A stretch of DNA of 64,000 nucleotides from Auricularia sp. M13 (taxonomy: Eukaryota; Basidiomycota; Agaricomycetes; Auriculariales; Auriculariaceae): positions 124,001 to 188,000 of the forward strand of contig CM073201.1 of NCBI GenBank assembly GCA_037042915.1, read 5' to 3'. The position numbers and the translations under genes are program-made. The notes beneath the pieces are model-generated. The model had not been told where the DNA came from. It saw only the letters and a list, made by a program, of their open reading frames with translations, and ran no database searches. Position 1 is the first letter of the stretch. Every line of letters begins with the position of its first letter. Shown here one piece after another: positions 1-12,780 of the stretch.

Positions 1-3000
1 ACTCGTCGTCTGTGGTATCCTCATCTTCTGAATCCTCCTGCGCCTGCTTCTTCTTCTCCTTTGAGTTCTTACCCCGTATTGCCTTAACAAAGTCGGCAGA
101 GTGTGCAGCGGCAGAATTGAATAACTTCACGGCCGTTCTGTCGAGCGTCAAGTATACAGCCTGCTCTCCGTCGTCGTCCTTGACCTCCTTTCGCGTAATC
201 CGGTTGGGAGCAAAAGCGTAAAGAAGATGCGAGGCCGGAATATGTGCAAAGGTTGCGCAGCCGAGTGTCGGACAAGATACGCTCGTCATCACCGATGGCT
301 TGCTGCGGCTATATACCTGAACGCCCAGATATGACAGTGATGCAAGGGAAGTTGCTTGATCAACTGCTGCGTGTCGTTTGTTGGTCGACATGTACATAGC
401 AAGCACTGCAATGCACCTGAGCATGCGCTACACTGACTGATGCATATCAAGTACCTTCGCCAACTGCGACGTATGGGGTCTTGGTGGGAACAAGAACCAG
501 GGCGTATGTGTGATTTCCTGGAGTCACGGAGAGCGGTGCAAGCGTGGACACATTCGCAAACGGGAGGTGCGGATAGGTTTTGACCAGTTCACCGAGATGC
601 GCCGCAATTGCCTTTTCGCGCGCGTCCTCACGTTGCTGTGAGGGAAGTTAGTGCACTGGAAAAGAATGTAGCTGAATGCGAACCTGAACTGTGAGCGTAG
701 GTGTCTTATTATCAATCGGGCTTGAGTTGTTCGGAAGTTGAGTGAAGCGCAATTTGCGAGAATAGCCTGTCGCAGTGGTTACGTTTCCAAGCAGCTCGAC
801 AAACTTCAGTGCGAGTTGAGACTTGATCTCGTCACGGAAAGGTGCTTTCTCTCCATCCGCCTGCGTCTGTGATGGACGCGCAATGGTTCCCTTGCGCACG
901 GACTCCGAGGTGAACTGATTTTGATAAGCCTCGCGCTCCCGGATAAGGACATCGAGATCAAATGTAGCACCATCAGGGAATAGGCGAGGGATCGTAGTGC
1001 ATGGAATCTGCACTCTGTTAGCCAGGTCCTCGCAGGAACACATTGCGGACACATACATGAGGCTTGTGTTTGTGACCTGCGTGAATCGCCCGCGCGTGGC
1101 CTACAAAGTCCTGAATTAAATCCGCCATGCGGCGCTCGACAGCTTCGTCTGTTTCAGGCAGCGATTCACTATGGAGATTTCAGCTACGCCAATGTGCGAG
1201 GAGATAAAGACCTTACATTTTGTCTGATTCAGCCATATCAGCCGCAGCGTATGCTGCCGCAGTTGCGTCCAGCTGCTGTCTAGTGGCCTGATCAGCTGAT
1301 GCATTGTTCCGCGTGCGCATCAGCTCGGAGAGACTGTTTATCTTGTCGTTCTCGAGGTAGTCCTGGCGCAGCGCCTCAGGAAGTCGCATCAAGCTTGGGC
1401 ATGCGCGCTCAGGCAGGTCACGACGGGGCGGAGGCGGCTTGGGCTGTCTCTTCTTCTTCTCTGGCTTCGACGAAGGAGCTGCCGGAGTAACAAGCATTGC
1501 CTCGACGTCAATACCAACGTGCTTGAGCGCGAATGTCACGTCGGAATAGGCGGAATCAGATAGTGCCTTGATTGTGTCGTCGTCAGGCCAGGATACCAGC
1601 GCAGGCAGGTCCATTCCATCGGTATTTGAGTATGTGTGCCAGTAACCGGCAGCGGTCAGGTTGGCGCGCTCGTCGGCAGACTTAGTACCCAACTTCCCAA
1701 GCAGGAAGGCACACAGTCGTGGGATGAAAAAAAGAAAATCGGCGAAGTTGAAGTCCATCTTGAGTTGCCGAAGAACGCCAAAGACGTGCTCGACCGGCTC
1801 CGTACTATGCAACCATGGAAGAAATGGCCACTGGGGGTAATGCTCGCGGTAGGAGACGATGAGTGCGATGAGGCTATCGCACAGTGTACTAAAGATGTCC
1901 ATCGATTCGCGAGATATGAAGTTGCGCTGGCGGGAGTGGTCTGGGTGGGCGTCGATATGGGCCTGCCAAGCTCGCAGGAAGAAGCGACACCGCAAAGCCA
2001 ATGCAATACGGGTACTATGCGGCATTTTACGGCTCTGCCATGCGTCGAATAAGCCACCGAGGAAGAACGAGTACAAGGTGAAGCCCAAGCGCTCGGGGAA
2101 CTCCTTGCAGTGCAATCTGAGCGCCTCGTGAGAGAAAAGACGCGATGCCGCGCGGTCGTCCTGCCGGTCGTTCTTCTCGATGTCGCGCCAGAAGAGAGGG
2201 GAGCTATCAAGACGAGCAAGCTCCTTGAGCTGCGTATAGAAGATCGGGTAATTCCCTAGCGCAAGCAATCGTGCGCCAGTAAAGAGCTGGTTGCGAGCCG
2301 TCTTGATGCCGTGCTTCGAATCCTGCACCATGATCAGTGGCCTGCCGTTGACCATGGGGATCTCGATCGAGAACGACAGCTCAGGCTGCGAGTTCTCAAT
2401 GAGAAGCGTCTTTTTCGTCGCCATGTCTGCAATCTTGCGCTGAAGCTTGCGCTCGACCTCAGTACCATCCGAAGCGTACGCCACAGGATATATATCAGCC
2501 GCATTCAGCAGGCCAATGATACGCTGATGAGCAAGGTGTAGGGATTCTGCATCATCGCCAGAGCTGCGAGCAAGACCAACGATCGGCGGGATCTTTGGGA
2601 CCGGTATGATAAGCACCCAAACGCGCAGCTGGAAGGTTGTCTCAGAGACGAGAAACAATGCATAAGCAAAGCGCACCTTCTCAGCAAGAATGATCGATGT
2701 ATCTTCAAGCAGCTCGTCGAGTTCCTGCTCATTGGAGACTCGGATTGGGTCGCCTGCATTTCCGATAATCACCCAGGCACCCTTTTCGACAGGCACCTCG
2801 CGTAGAACCGGTTCAAGCTTGGTGTCGTCGCAGGCTAGCACAACAGGCCCGGTGTAGCCATATGACTGTAGAATCTTGACGGCAGCTTCTATGTTCTCCT
2901 TGCATATACCAGGGAGCAAGCGCAACTTCGCACGCAAATGCCTGCCACTCCACGTCAGTGGCTGATGCTCCAAGTCGCGGACCCGTACAACGTACCGTAG

Positions 3001-6000
3001 GCTACGAAATCCCCGGCCACCAAAATGGACGCGAAACAGGCGGTATGCTCGCGGACAGACAGTAGCCAGCGCGGTACAAATATTGTCGAAGGCGGCGGGG
3101 TAGATCGTTCCGCGGTGCGATTTCCCTTGCGCGTCGCGCTGCTTCATCGTAACTGTAGCCTGTATGGCGCCGAGAAGAACCTCCTGATCTGCGTACTGGC
3201 CGCTCAAGACACCTCGCGCGTAATCAGACAGAACCTTCGCCGCGTTATTGACATTCTGGGAACAAGTTCTTCAGCGTCGCAATTGAGACGTCCAGGAAAT
3301 GGTACGTACCCGTTTCACAAGGTCGGAGAGTCCGTGATACCGAGCGTACAGCTCGCCAAGCTCTTTCTCACGGTAGCAATGCGGAACATACTTGCGGTTC
3401 TCCTCCAAAGGAACCGGGACGCTCAAGGCGGTCTTGAACGTCTTTGTTGACTTTACGCGTAAACAAGCAGCACAAATACGAAGCTGAGACGCCGGCGACG
3501 TCTTCAGAGTCTTCTGGCATTTAGACGAGAAGACCGCCTGCAATGCGTGACGATTGAGCCAGATGTAAGCGTGCGTTTCAGCCGTGCGAACTTGATCTTG
3601 TTCCGCGAACGTGAGCTCCTTCCAAGTCCTGTTGAACAGACGCTGGGCGAGGATAGCTCGGGGTGGGGCGCCTCCACCAAGCACTGAAGTACGTGCCAGG
3701 TAATCCTCAATCGCGGGCAGCAAGGCGACGGTAAGACCCATGCAAGGAAGCTCGACGGTGAGAGGAGGTGGAGCAGTGATTGCGGCCTGCCGCTGCCGAG
3801 CAAACATGTCGACGATCGAGTGGGTCTTTCCCTTGATAGGGTTGCCCTTGTATGTCTGCTTCTTGCAGACACGCAAGTGATCGACAAACTTCTGTACGCG
3901 GTAGGGTTTGCAGCGCCGCCAGTTACCACACCGACCACAGCGAACACGACGAAAGTCCTCTGAATCAAACGACGCAGTAGAATCAAGCCGACGGATACTC
4001 TCGCGGAAGTCGGCAAGTTTGACGTCGTGCTCACGTGCATTTGGAACCCAAGAACGAGGTTGGTGGGGGCCAAATTTCTTCCGTTTGGATGCGCGCTCGG
4101 GAGAGGATGCAGAAAGTCGGCGCTTCTTGCCAATAGTGTGTGGTTCATCCCGTACCGTAGCGTCGCTGTCGGTGCCGTCGGAATCGTAGTCAGACTCAGC
4201 GGAGATATCGTCGACATCCATCGCGATCGCAGGAGCAGCAGCGGAAATGGCAGCAGGAGCAGGAACGGCAGTGGACGGCGGCATAGATGATCTGGATGAA
4301 AGAAGCCAGGGTGCACAATCCTCAGTTGAATCTTCCATGGCTTCCCAGTCCGCGGTGAGGTCACCATCAGCAAAGGGAAGGGGTTGGATGTCGACTGAGG
4401 GAGGGGGCGCGGGACAGTCATCTTCGCCGACCTCATTGCCATCACGGTCATCACACGGCAGCAGATGTAGCTGAGAGAGAGATTAGAATATATTATGCGG
4501 ACAAACTAGCAAACATGCTTACAATACTGTCATGAAGCCATAGTCCTGTCATCTGAAGGAACCAAGTCATTCTGTGCTCCATCCATTCCTCTTGAGTCCA
4601 AGCCGGTAACCCGAGAACATGGTGAGCGAGCGAGGTTAGCACGATGACACCGCATGAGCTCCCGTCTGTCTGTTCGGGGGCCGAGCACTCAACAAGACGG
4701 AAATCGCGCCCAGGAAGCAGGCCTCGGAGCCACCAGCGCACGTCCGGAAGTTGCGTCCCGGGAGGCTTTGCCATCGGATCCCGAGAATCGGCGTAGACAA
4801 TAGTAGCAGCCCGCAAATCAATCATCATGAGTGTCCAGTGGTTTCCGTTAACGTGAACAGGGATGGCGATACGATCACAGTGGCCAGCGGCGATTTTAGC
4901 ATCGCCAAACCGAGGACGAGACGGATTATACGCTCCAGCGGCTCGACGGCGGTAGCCTCGGAGATTCAGCAGGTGATACGTACTCATGTATGCCGTGCGA
5001 GAATGCACTCCTTCCTGTCGGGCAATGTACTCAAAGCCAGCATTCAGGTGTTCGTCGCGAAGCCATCTGCGCGAGAGGAACTCGAGCGCCAGTGTTGTTG
5101 TAATGTGGACGTTGGGCCCGAAGCAGTCCATTCTTTCATCGGGGGGGAGAAGATCGAGCCGAGCCAAACATTCGTGGGCGAGCCGGATTGCTCGAGGTCT
5201 GCCAGAATCCAAGGCGTTCTGCAGCCATGTACGCGACGAGGCGAGCAGGGTGTCAAAGGGCGCTAGCGTAGTGGGTGATGAGGCGGACGGAACTGCGGAG
5301 CCTCCAGACATCGATGGGAAAGAATGATTGTCGCGGATGGGGGTGGCAGGCAGCGCATAGGGTTCGCGATAGAAGGGAGAATCGGGCGAGCGAGCCGAAC
5401 GCGGCGTAGTGTCCGGACGGGCGTTTGGACGAGCATGTGGAGGACGTGGAACGGGTCCAGCAGAACGGAAATATGCCAGAAAAGCTGTCATGAGCAGATA
5501 TGCTGCGACCTGCGGATGGTGAGACACGGTATAATAAATAGAACATGTGGCTTACTGCCTGCTTCACTCGACGCCTGCTTGCATGCGCGGAGTGGTTACG
5601 CCGTTTGCGTGGCGGCCAGAGAATGACCGCAATTTGTGAGCGGCAGTGTACGAGCACTACAATGGAACAGTCAGTTCCCGCGATCTGCTTCTGAGCCATG
5701 CTAACGGCGTACCGGCAGTGCTGAGCGCGATGATTCCATAGAAAATGGTGCTAAAGACGAGGATCCGCGGTGCCGTTGGGACCGCTAAAAGACTTGAGAA
5801 CAGCACGGACAGCGCAAAAGCGTGCATCCATGCGAGCCAGAGAGCCGCTGCTGAGGCAGCGTTCAAGGACCCAAGTCCTGCGCCCAAGAACACACCGACC
5901 AGCCAGTAGAACACCTGGATGGGTGACTTGAACGTCCCACCAGGCCTCTGGCCATGAAATTCAGCTAAGGGGAATAAGTTGGTGTTGGTCTGAGAGGCGT

Positions 6001-6063
6001 GCACAACATACCATGAGTGGCATAATGTTTCTGAGAGCGGCGAGGACGTGATAGATCAGCCAT
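1..6063 (-). CDS. Membrane segments + Ulp1 protease + zinc finger + DDE transposase fusion (3' end off window)
   Basis: Ten exons join in phase: 6063-6012, 5964-5713, 5656-5556, 5509-4523, 4470-3310, 3255-1217, 1168-1057, 1007-684, 635-455 and 405-1. All nine introns are 46-56 nt with GT-AG ends. The start is the first ATG after a TATA box. The product is at least 1,871 residues. Residues about 33-50, 55-80, 84-115 and 136-149 are hydrophobic. A Ulp1/C48-like domain has His359 (NHW), Asp376 (YADS), Gln415 and Cys421 (DGSSCG). A C2HC finger uses Cys642, Cys645, Cys/His662 and Cys666. The catalytic core offers Asp994/995 (CDDTKL), Asp1163 (QDSKHGIKT) and Glu1337/1340 (EPVEHVFG) as a putative DDE triad. 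The C-terminus is acidic and lysine-rich. The frame has no stop, so it looks intact. The superfamily is not identified; the QDSKH motif recalls P-element-type transposases only loosely. Two adjacent genes instead of one fusion remain possible. Confidence 0.72.
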
Positions 6064-6417: not shown

Positions 6418-6523
6418 CGGGTCCCGTTTAGATGGAGCGTGGGCCCACCTGATGGCCACCGCGGGTCCCGTTTAGATGTATGGAGTGGTCGCGTTTCGCG
6501 GCGATACGGGTCCCGTTTAGATG
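6418..6523 (+). repeat. Three 17-bp subterminal direct repeats
   Basis: CGGGTCCCGTTTAGATG occurs at 6418-6434, 6462-6478 and 6507-6523, spaced 44 and 45 bp. The third copy runs on into GGACCC, making a GGGTCCC/GGGACCC hairpin with an 8-nt loop. They sit between the transposase promoter and the presumed transposon end, where transposase-binding repeats are found in other elements. That role is an inference. Confidence 0.7.
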
Positions 6524-6599
6524 GGACCCTTATCGGACTTTGCCGGGGGCCTCTGTGAAGGGCTGTCAGAGTCGTGCAAACTGACAGAAGCTGACGTAC

Positions 6600-9251: not shown

Positions 9252-10905
9252 ATGACGGTCCTACCCGAGGTGACGCAAACGTTAATCATAGCCGCTAAGG
9301 ACGCGCATACTGAAAAGGTGCGTGGTGGCTTGCACAGTGCCGTGTGCTGTACTCTTTAACGCTCTGTGACAGACTGTCTACGGTGCGGCAGGATCCAGTT
9401 TCCCTACACTGAAAACGCGCTGACGCTGTACCGTCACTCCAGCCTGTGTGGCGGCTCTATATGTGAGTCTGTACTGCTTTCGCGACGCCTTGGCCGATAG
9501 AGATCCTTCAGATATATGACTACATAATAACCCTCGGCGACGAAGTCGAGCTCATCTGGCCCTCAGCGTTGAGCATAACCGAAATCATCTTCTTCGCCGC
9601 GCGGTACACCGCTTGGCTCGAGATCATCGAGGAGATGATTTGTGCGTCTAACTGCGCACCGGCTCTGCTCACGCCATGCTCATCGCGTGTTCAGTTTGGT
9701 ACGGCAATCTGGATAGGCACACATGCAAGATCTTCGGAGGGTATCACGCATGTACGTCGTTCACAATATGTCCGTCATCGCCCAATCTGATTATGCTGCA
9801 GTTTCCGTTGTAATCGGCATGGTCATGAGCCAATGTGAGTTTATGTTCGTACAGGACGATGCACGACTTGTTAGCTGAATGACCGCGCTACAAGCCCTCA
9901 TCATCGTCAGAACCTGGGCGATCTGGAACGGCACGCGCGTAATCAAAGTTGCCTTCATCAGCTTCTGCTCAACTTGTCTGGCTATATGCGCGTATCTCAG
10001 CGTGGAGTGGATGAACAACACTACCTGTATGAGCCTCCGAGTCGCTGTTTCGATTTCCCGTCCTCACAGCTTGGACTTCGCAGTTCATGCAACCGGCACA
10101 CTCGTACCATGGGTGCAGGGTTGTGCTATTTCAGCGCCATATCGTTACGTATATGTAGGCTGGATCTTGTTCTGCTGCTGCGATGTCGGTAAGTATGCGG
10201 TATACCTATGCCTGGCTGTCCGATACTCAGCCATTCCCCGTCGCAGGGCTGCTCGGACTGACCGCAATAAAATGCTGGCAGCATCGTACGCCATCTACAC
10301 ATGGAGAGTCATGAGCTGACACGGTGGCTGTAGTACAGCCGGGTTCTAGTCGCCTGACAGTCTCTCTCTATCGAGACGGTGCGTCGCACGATGGCACGTC
10401 TCGGACCATGCATTGATGGCCCAATGTCGCAGCATTTGCAATCTTCTTCATCGTCCTAAGTGAGTAATTCCCGACCCCGGAAGCGATGAACTTGCGTCTC
10501 ATGTTCGCAGTGCTCGCTGTCGCAAACCTCGCGGTGACACTCGCAGCGGCGGTGCGCAAGCTCGTTATGACAGACTCTCCGCCGAAACTGATAACTCATC
10601 TGCGTGCAGGAACATTACCAGGTCTTGTTATACGGGTAAGCCCCGCCCTCCATCATGCGGGCTCAGCTGGCTCAGAGGACGTTGCGATCCATGGCAGGGT
10701 CGAGCGAATGCTCTACACAATCCTAGCGTGCCGCATGCTGCTAAACCTACGGGCGACGGCGCGCGATCCCGTCACATCGCTGGTGCCGCTTGCCACGGGC
10801 CAGACGATCGCCTTCGACAACAACCATGAGCCCGGAACGGCTGGCGCCGCGTACGAACTCTCGCGGCGGGATTGGGTGACGGTCACTGACTCAACGATTG
10901 TGTAA
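9252..10905 (+). CDS. DUF6533 seven-helix-type membrane protein F2
   Basis: About twelve short exons join in phase. Exon 1 is 9252-9317 (22 codons). A 10-nt microexon follows at 9373-9382, then a 20-nt exon at 9443-9462. The next exon starts at 9512 and encodes IYDYIITLGDEVELIWPS, the DUF6533 signature. Later exons give WYGNLDRHTCKIFGGYHAC, VIGMVMSQ, ALIIVRTWAIWNGTRVIK, the helix ending YVYVGWILFCCCDVG, SRLTVSLYRDG, MLAVANLAVTLAAA, EHYQVLLYG and the last exon ERMLYTILACRMLLNLR, ending with TAA at 10905. An in-frame TGA seen if the exon-2 region is read through is removed by the microexon model. It is convergent with F3 (217 bp apart). The function is unknown; the RTWAIWN motif and helix spacing suggest a receptor-like membrane protein. 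Confidence 0.8.
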
Positions 10906-11122
10906 CGACCAGCATTGCTTGTGAACTCGTAAACAAATGAATTGAAATCCACGTTAATGACGAGTCAGAGGTCGGAGGGCATTCCAAACTATCGAATATC
11001 ATGGGCTGTTCTGCGCCATTACGCGCACCCGCGATACGTCGAGAAACGTTCTGGTCGATTTGAAATTGAAAAACGTGTGCGGTTCCATTATCGTACTGTA
11101 GGTGCACCATACTTTCGAGATT

Positions 11123-12780
11123 TTACATGCCCGGTGAGGTCTCCACTACCGCTACCCAATCCCGGCGCGGGGGCTCATATCCATCGGCCGGCTCGCGGCG
11201 GAAATTCATCGTCTGGCCGCTGCTGAGCAGCCCTGGCACCACTGTATCCGACGCGACCGTGTCCCGCGCCATCGCCCGCAGGTTCAGCATCATGCGACAC
11301 GCCAGGATTGTGTACAGCATCCTCTCGAATCTGTAACGGTGGCACTCCCATTAGCCTGGCGAGAGCGACATCGGTGATGGCGTACCCATATAGCAAAACC
11401 TGGTAGTGTTCCTGCAGGACAGAACATACATTTCAGATGCGTTCGGAATATGCGCCGATCCTACGTACCGCCGCTACCAGCGTCACCGTGAGATTTGCGA
11501 CGGCGAGAACTGAATGTCATGGTATCGGCACATGGCGTTGCGTGAGCTACTCGACTTTGGTGGACTCACGGAGGACGAAGGAAAATATTACAAAGGCTAG
11601 GTGACAAAAATGCGCGCCGTCCGAGTCAGCAGTCTGCTATCCTCCACAGGTGAATGCGTAGATGGTACATACCGTCTCGATAGAGCATCACCGTCAGACG
11701 AGCAGAACCCGGACGAACTAGTTTTACATTTAAGTTGACACATCCTTGATTGGATTCAGGGAGGCTTACGTTGTTGCCAGCCTTTGACCGCGGTCAATCC
11801 AATCAAAACTGTCCCATTGGGGATACCACGCATAAAGTGTGGGCACACCAAGATCGGAGGCGCATGATAGAACCCAGCCCACGTAGATGAGACGATAGGG
11901 CGCAGAGATAGCACACCCGTGTAGCCACGGCGCAAGCGTGCCGGTCACGAGGACTGCACCGACAAAGGTGTTAGAGAGTTGCCCAATATCCTTGATTATA
12001 AGGTGCGCCGCACTCACACGTCGTGTTTTCCATCCACTCCACGCTGAGGTACGCGCAGAAGCCGGGTCCGGACAAGCAGAAGATTGTGTAGGAAAATTTG
12101 AACACGCGCGCGCCGTTCCAGATCGCCCAGGTTCTGACGATGATGAGAGCTCAAAAATCGAAGGCATTGTAAGCACATGGCATTCCCAGGCCTCGACATG
12201 AGAAAACTCACTTTGACTCATGACCATGCCCACCACAACGGAAACTGCAGCACGACCTGTCAGAGCCTGGAGGCAGTTTGTAAATTACGCACAGGCATGA
12301 TACCCTCCAAATATCTTGCATGCGCGGCCGTCCAGATCACCGTACCAAACTGAGGGAGACATTAGTGGCGCTGTGCGGAGGGGCCGAAACCAATCAAACG
12401 TACAGATTATTTCCTCGATTATCTCGAGCCAAGCAGTGTAGCGAGCAGCGTAGAATACAATCTCAGTGAGGCTCAATTTTGAGGGCCAGATGAGCTCGAC
12501 TTCCTCGGTGAAAGTGATGATGTAGTCGTATATCTTAGTAATCGAACTTAGTGCTGGAAGCTGAAGGTCGCACAAACTCACAAATAGAGCCGCGACGCAG
12601 GCTTCAGAGGACAGATTATTAGAGCGACTGCAGTGGGTGCAGTAACCCAATGAGCATACCTAAGATAAACTACGACTAGTGGTGAATCGCATTGGAGGAC
12701 AATAGGAGAGTGAAGCGTACCTTTTGCGTTTGCGCATCTTGGGCCGCCGTGATCAAGACTTCCGCAGATTCGGAGACCAT
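11123..12780 (-). CDS. DUF6533 seven-helix-type membrane protein F3
   Basis: Exon 1 is 12780-12721 (20 codons, GTACGC donor). A 13-nt microexon lies at 12659-12647 and is followed by ACVAALF. The DUF6533 core reads IYDYIITFTEEVELIWPSK. Further exons encode WYGDLDGRACKIFGGYHAC, VVVGMVMSQ, ALIIVRTWAIWNGARVFK, the helix ending LIYVGWVLSCASDLG, LRPGSARLTVMLYRDG, AFVIFSFVL, LAVANLTVTLVAA, EHYQVLLYG and FERMLYTILACRMMLNLR, with TAA at 11123. All joins are in phase. F3 is closest to F2 and F4, consistent with local duplication and inversion. A TATA box lies 41 bp upstream. Confidence 0.8.

Follow-up and report, generated by a model that had tools for sequence, protein, structure and literature searches.

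The left edge of a 64,000-nt window of the Auricularia sp. M13 genome (C9:124001-188000; the window is the whole stretch of DNA that was analyzed) carries, on the minus strand, coding sequence for hydrophobic segments, a Ulp1-like protease, a zinc finger, and a putative transposase core in succession. This locus raises the questions of whether these parts form one gene, whether the gene belongs to a mobile element, and what kind of transposase it encodes. The assembly that was searched comprises 52.1 Mb in 14 contigs and contains seven loci of the family, namely, C9 (the copy at the window), C7, C2, C10, C12, C3, and C4.

The gene was modeled with a script based on codon usage and splice sites, which was trained on the gene's own long exons, and by comparison with the C7 copy, the closest one, which settled the initial exons and exposed two introns that had been missed. 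The model contains 12 exons and 1,839 codons, with 11 introns of 46 to 56 nt, and runs from an ATG at position 6063 to a stop codon that ends just beyond the window, at window position -7 (C9:123993) (Table 1). A first-pass annotation of the window had proposed ten exons separated by introns of 46 to 56 nt. The intron sizes stand, but the exon count was too low, as two stop-free introns (introns 6 and 7), each with a length divisible by three, had been taken as coding; they cannot both be in-frame coding sequence because the homologous introns of C7 are 49 and 47 nt long. Its minimum of 1,871 codons is likewise replaced by 1,839, with 18 and 16 intron codons subtracted and the last codons beyond the window added.

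TABLE 1 Positions in the window of the features of the element and its gene
Feature	Position	Strand	Basis or remark
8-bp target site duplication on the element's 5' side, CTTCACAG in gene orientation	6553..6560	.	Second copy beyond the window, at C9:117546-117553
5' terminal inverted repeat, outer block AGGCCCCCGGCA	6541..6552	-	Matching repeat beyond the window, at C9:117554-117565
Three subterminal direct repeats TAAACGGGACCCG	6507-6519, 6462-6474, 6418-6430 (span 6418..6519)	-	Candidate transposase binding sites
Exon 1	6012..6063	-	Start codon at 6063; gene model and C7 comparison
Exon 2, hydrophobic segments	5713..5964	-	Gene model, C7 comparison, hydropathy
Exon 3, remainder of the hydrophobic part; basic motif HASRRRVKQ	5556..5656	-	Gene model, C7 comparison, alignment
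Exon 4, Ulp1 (C48) protease domain	4523..5509	-	PF02902, E = 1e-9
Ulp1 catalytic residues	H359 4840-4838, D376 4789-4787, Q415 4672-4670, C421 4654-4652	-	Exon 4
Exon 5, acidic/basic linker (possible nuclear localization) and C2HC zinc finger (3939-3865)	3310..4470	-	
Exon 6, transposase core begins	2996..3255	-	C7 comparison, core alignment
Intron 6, 54 nt, stop-free	2942..2995	-	Homologous intron of C7, 49 nt
Exon 7, first acidic motif CDDTKL (D976 2829-2827, D977 2826-2824)	2677..2941	-	
Intron 7, 48 nt, stop-free	2629..2676	-	Homologous intron of C7, 47 nt
Exon 8, remaining core (D1080 2469-2467, D1129-x2-H1132 2322-2311, E1306 1791-1789)	1217..2628	-	
Exon 9, C-terminal part	1057..1168	-	C7 comparison
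Exon 10, C-terminal part	684..1007	-	C7 comparison
Exon 11, C-terminal part	455..635	-	C7 comparison
Exon 12, C-terminal part	1..405, running on to -7	-	Gene model, C7 comparison

The C7 copy encodes a protein of 1,840 residues with 73% amino acid identity to that of C9 over 1,819 aligned residues, and all 11 introns are common to the two copies in both position and phase. Between C9 and C7, pN is lower than pS in each of five gene segments, namely, the N-terminal hydrophobic part (pS, 0.58; pN, 0.28, the highest pN and hence the least conserved segment), the Ulp1 region (0.73 and 0.13), the finger region (0.65 and 0.16), the core (0.70 and 0.08), and the C-terminal part (0.72 and 0.22); the ratios are rough because synonymous sites are near saturation. 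All segments of the gene evolve as coding sequence. Searches of the genome recovered the order Ulp1-finger-core at C9, C7, C2, C10, and C12. At C3, the finger region and the core were matched by search and Ulp1 was not, with the Ulp1 catalytic motifs present upstream in the gene model only; at C4, the search matched the core and neither Ulp1 nor the finger, and the C-terminal part is present in the gene model. The models for C2, C10, C12, C3, and C4 are single automatic ones, and that of C2 runs upstream into an adjoining gene, so that only its part from the Ulp1 exon onward was used.

These data bear on the possibility that two tandem genes, one for the membrane part and/or Ulp1 and the next for the transposase, merely appear joined. 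An in-frame ATG ahead of the protease would permit a shorter product, and the membrane exons are apparently missing in C2. However, the splice sites and phases over each junction are the same in C9 and C7 with no intervening stop, and the succession Ulp1-finger-core is unchanged at five loci, which makes two separate genes very unlikely. The shared introns and the excess of synonymous change in every segment instead bear out the original proposal of one gene encoding one fusion protein.

The protease domain lies in the N-terminal part of the protein and was recognized by the Pfam model PF02902. A profile of seven Ulp1 domains (six of this family and one of a pogo-type fusion described below) retrieved yeast Ulp1 (1euv) as its top match (E = 7e-14), followed by SENP proteins. 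The catalytic H, D, Q, and C noted in the first-pass annotation are indeed present, and H359, W360, D376, Q415, and C421 are invariant in all six aligned family copies and in the pogo-type domain. Judged by these residues and matches, this is a genuine domain of the Ulp1/SENP cysteine protease (C48) class, and its family membership points to SUMO as the probable substrate. The predicted zinc finger reads C642-x2-C645-x16-H662-x3-C666 in the C9 protein and is kept as C-x2-C-x16/17-H-x3/5-C in five of six aligned copies, the C3 copy lacking the first Cys and the pattern. A C2HC finger between protease and core, as first described, is therefore a recurrent feature, found in that order at C9, C7, C2, C10, and C12.

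Membrane segments had also been proposed for the N-terminus. On hydropathy estimates only, Kyte-Doolittle peaks cover residues 33 to 103 in C9 and 57 to 104 in C7, and a hydrophobic N-terminus was found in four of the five copies examined (C9, C7, C10, and C12, the latter two from gene models). The putative membrane part is not universal, since no hydrophobic segment is evident in C2. The distance from the element's end to the Ulp1 exon is 680 nt in C2 versus 1,043 nt in C9, and this short lead, together with the lack of an evident hydrophobic segment in C2, indicates that the hydrophobic part is not strictly needed. The hydrophobic exon gave a weak match to MASE4 (E = 0.0018), below the cut-off of that model, which was taken as a sign of general membrane character. 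A basic motif, ASRRR, follows the hydrophobic part in C9, C7, and C10; these basic residues suggest that the rest of the protein may face the cytosol or nucleus.

One reading of this arrangement is a membrane-tethered transposase that releases itself, in which N-terminal helices would anchor the protein and its own Ulp1 would cut the linker, perhaps after a GG directly ahead of the protease, to free the nuclear part. The order of membrane part, protease, basic linker, finger, and core would suit release by one cut, the hydrophobic N-terminus recurs in four copies, and the GG occupies one alignment position in C9, C7, and C2 and lies nearby but unaligned in C10 and C12. In addition, membrane-bound regulators released by cleavage are known, as set out in excerpts of PMC13294678. 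In MYRF, a membrane-bound transcription factor that processes itself, a membrane part, a cleavage module, and a DNA-binding part likewise share one chain, as described there; the cleavage module of MYRF, however, is an intramolecular chaperone domain rather than a cysteine protease, and the likeness is one of analogy only. Several observations weigh against self-release: C2 has no membrane part and yet has perfect ends and a duplication, the GG is exact in only three of five copies, the membrane part is conserved less than any other segment, its membrane insertion is a guess from hydropathy, and an in-frame ATG (MSGGSAV) could yield a product lacking it. Self-release is consequently regarded as doubtful, and the GG ahead of the protease counts as no more than a clue.

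The boundaries of the element were sought by aligning C9 with C7, which showed where the likeness between the two copies stops, and by scanning for 10-bp inverted repeats with at most one mismatch flanked by 8-mers differing at no more than one position. The scan covered six of the seven loci (C9, C7, C2, C10, C12, and C4) and gave one match each, without mismatch, at C9, C7, C2, and C10; no ends with a duplication were found at C12 or C4. The four full copies share the ends AGGCCCCCGG...CCGGGGGCCT and are flanked by perfect 8-bp target duplications, namely, CTTCACAG at C9:117554-130552, TCTTAAAA at C7:1955943-1962702, CTCGTACC at C2:3835335-3841530, and GTTACAGG at C10:3474103-3481554. Full-length copies elsewhere in the genome, which had been named as a check on the annotation, thus exist at C7, C2, and C10. 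The interval first reported, positions 1 to 6063, is covered by the gene, but the element itself is larger, extending from window position 6552 to C9:117554, beyond the window. The C9 element spans 13.0 kb and that of C7 6.76 kb; the former figure includes about 6.2 kb of another element because this second element is nested between the stop codon and the 3' end.

The inverted repeats have two blocks. The outer one is AGGCCCCCGGC; the inner one lies about 25 to 33 bp in, differs among the element types (C9/C7, C2, and C10), and is the same at both ends within each type. In C9 and C7, three TAAACGGGACCCG direct repeats also occupy the same positions close to the 5' end, and two that resemble them lie close to the 3' end; this pattern has three matches in the window against 0.01 expected and was not found in C2 or C10. 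Genome-wide, the 12-base end AGGCCCCCGGCA occurs 22 times versus 3 times for the reversed control. These 22 occurrences comprise the ends of C9 and C7 (two pairs), five facing pairs spanning 441 bp to 2.4 kb, and 8 unpaired ends, one of which (C1:8148164) shares 97% identity with the C9 5' end over 137 bp. All five shorter copies have perfect 8-bp duplications. Three of them, 441 to 443 bp long, are 91 to 98% alike (C1:5350099-5350541, C3:1536281-1536721, and C5:2635661-2636103), and a 691-bp copy derives from the C9/C7 type by deletion. No likeness to the family's proteins was seen in the 2.4-kb pair.

The element is a real DNA transposon and most likely a complete one of the cut-and-paste type. 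A host gene domesticated from a transposase whose mobile element was lost would account for a long, intact, multi-exon frame under purifying selection and for the small number of full copies. It is extremely improbable, given the perfect ends and duplications at four places, the matching short copies, and the different target sequences that mark C9 and C7 as separate insertions.

The element nested in the C9 copy lies at about C9:117587-123812 (L009:3587-9812), left of the window. By eye, its ends are 13 bp long, CAAGGGGTGCCCA, and its duplication is the 8-bp GATGGGAC. Its gene model is on the plus strand, with 9 exons and 1,774 residues, and three of its open frames lacked any Pfam match above the cut-off. 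Homology between its transposase and the core studied here had been suspected from similar motifs and was dropped because profile comparison aligned only an 11-residue proline-rich stretch, with a probability of 2.3%. Other observations concern the neighboring DNA. Also left of the window, on the minus strand, L009:975-3347 contains a long open frame that by eye resembles a copia-type gag-integrase polyprotein. The DNA of C9:114395-114998 shares 98.5% identity with C3:2603859-2604464, and positions 9510 to 12535 of the window contain diverged direct copies (73% over 532 bp) with several inverted arms around 10331 to 11720.

The putative catalytic residues of the core are D977, D1080, D1129-x2-H1132, and E1306. 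In the alignment of the seven copies, in which the C10 row is partial with a doubtful model ahead of 'TKLRLW' and the C12 row is confined to what lies between a large insertion and a stop, the columns of D1080, D1129, H1132, and E1306 do not vary, and all seven have the DD of the first motif. The DDE residues suspected from the window alone are thus confirmed as conserved positions, with no model or structure match for an RNase H fold. The comparison with transposase profiles that had been proposed as a further check set the core apart, with none of the seven cores matching a Pfam transposase model at E values up to 10. Their best Pfam matches, IML1 (0.051) and HTH_54 (0.13), are both unrelated, and the core profile had no match among PDB sequences at E values up to 10. 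A structure prediction of one core sequence, with one intron retained, was unusable (mean pLDDT, 37.7), and a pattern search of viral contigs gave 89 matches, none of which was confirmed as a relative. The motifs suggest that the core has a D-D-[D(2)H]-E site resembling that of RNase H. The family was first described as possibly distinct and basidiomycete; its separation from KDZ, CACTA, and Mutator-like elements stands, as detailed below. Similar cores appear to be common among unannotated mushroom proteins, which makes it likely that the family extends beyond this genome.

Association of Ulp1 with transposases is not confined to this family. There are 28 Ulp1 matches in the genome, 13 of which follow a KDZ match of the same strand at 1.85 to 2.3 kb in the 3' direction, among the 149 KDZ matches listed (from 150 scored of 163 candidates). 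Among the same 149, none of the 28 Ulp1 matches lies 5' of a KDZ match within 6 kb, and C12 has no KDZ match. The gene model at C8:1726892-1731733 contains KDZ and Ulp1 in one open frame of 1,440 residues, with Ulp1 C-terminal. At C2:5118607-5119089, Ulp1 (PF02902, E = 9.6e-8) lies N-terminal to a pogo-like DDE_1 core (PF03184, E = 1.8e-9); by eye, gene models at C4:832408 and C10:1838259 resemble this fusion. In a tree of 15 Ulp1 domains with long branches, in which the 'host' labels are guesses and three of the four domains so labeled (L002-L004, near-identical) were cut too long, the domains of the element family, C3, and the pogo type formed a clade with a support of 0.98, apart from the KDZ-linked and other domains; within it, the family and pogo type without C3 had a support of only 0.38. 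This grouping hints that an N-terminal Ulp1 module may have been exchanged between the element family and the pogo-type fusions.

Together, the sequence features are best explained by an autonomous cut-and-paste transposon whose Ulp1 probably removes SUMO from the transposase or from host proteins. In this mechanism, the protein would recognize the terminal and/or subterminal repeats of the element through its C2HC finger, and the core would cut at the ends with its putative RNase-H-like site and join the element to target DNA by 8-bp staggered cuts. Ulp1 would act as a SUMO protease carried in cis, stripping SUMO from the transposase itself or from host silencing or repair proteins, and the hydrophobic N-terminus may keep some of the protein membrane-bound while the remainder faces the cytosol or nucleus. 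A role of transposon Ulp1 domains in transposition was suggested, not shown, in the excerpted text of PMC2836005. A bolder reading is a new transposon superfamily with a membrane-anchored precursor freed by its own SUMO-type protease, in which transposition would be tied to SUMO signaling and the protease module passed between unrelated transposons of the genome; taken as a whole, we consider it improbable.

The analysis gives the full anatomy, including ends, duplications, derivatives, and a spliced gene, for a transposase core outside current Pfam. A membrane-anchored transposase, if true, would be unusual and is directly testable. Moreover, one genome contains three Ulp1-transposase arrangements: Ulp1 lies 3' of KDZ in the first, whereas in the other two it is N-terminal, once to a pogo-like core and once to the core of this element. 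The joining of Ulp1 to other transposases suggests a shared benefit, and the three arrangements suggest that SUMO removal may be repeatedly useful to transposons. Excerpts of PMC12730594 describe a parallel to this uptake of Ulp1, in that TET/JBP enzymes were acquired by several fungal transposon lineages.

In the order of its motifs, the core most resembles the P/THAP9 signature. The P element makes 8-bp duplications, as does the element described here. According to excerpts of PMC8230255, the P-superfamily series begins with D230 and D303, continues with a [C/D](2)H motif that follows the fifth strand at D339, and, past an insertion domain, closes with E531. The core shares this order (D, D, [C/D](2)H, insertion, E), whereas the spacings differ, being 103, 49, and 177 residues in this core and 73, 36, and 192 in the P element. 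The first spacing is 70 to 73 in P/THAP9 versus 103 here, a C2HC finger and Ulp1 stand in place of the THAP domain, and the ends start with AGGCCCCC, unlike those of P. The P-type RNase H model PF21787 had no match at the family's loci and three sub-cut-off matches elsewhere in the genome (E = 0.08 to 0.27). Because the spacings differ and PF21787 is not matched, the core is said to work like a P/THAP9-type or related transposase, probably, and is not called one.

Other superfamilies were compared and set aside. KDZ elements (Kyakuja, Dileera, Zisupton) resemble this one in having a large multi-exon transposase, in 8-bp duplications, reported for Zisupton and a Dileera in excerpts of PMC12730594, and, at C8 in this genome, in having Ulp1 in one gene with KDZ. 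They differ in that Ulp1 lies 3' of the core in this genome's KDZ copies and 5' in the element described here; PF18758 was not matched by the seven cores, and the nearest KDZ match, among the 149 listed, is 36 kb away. CACTA/EnSpm and Plavaka elements, compared by their description in the same excerpts, have 2- to 3-bp duplications and ends of CAC, TGT, or CATCA and were rejected on the basis of the 8-bp duplications and the AGGCCCCC ends. Mutator-like elements were rejected as well and hAT membership is not supported, as no Mutator transposase model and no Pfam hAT model was matched by the seven cores at E values up to 10, the hAT search being one of the cores without the C-terminal part past them. 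By title or the start of the abstract, no Ulp1-finger-core fusion is described in the open-licence literature searched. The pogo-like fusion at C2:5118607 also has an N-terminal Ulp1, which groups with that of the element in the small tree, and differs in its DDE_1 core. Ginger1, as described in excerpts of PMC2836005, similarly combines transposase and Ulp1 in one protein; it differs in having a Gypsy-type integrase with Ulp1 or OTU at the C-terminus, whereas in the element described here Ulp1 is N-terminal.
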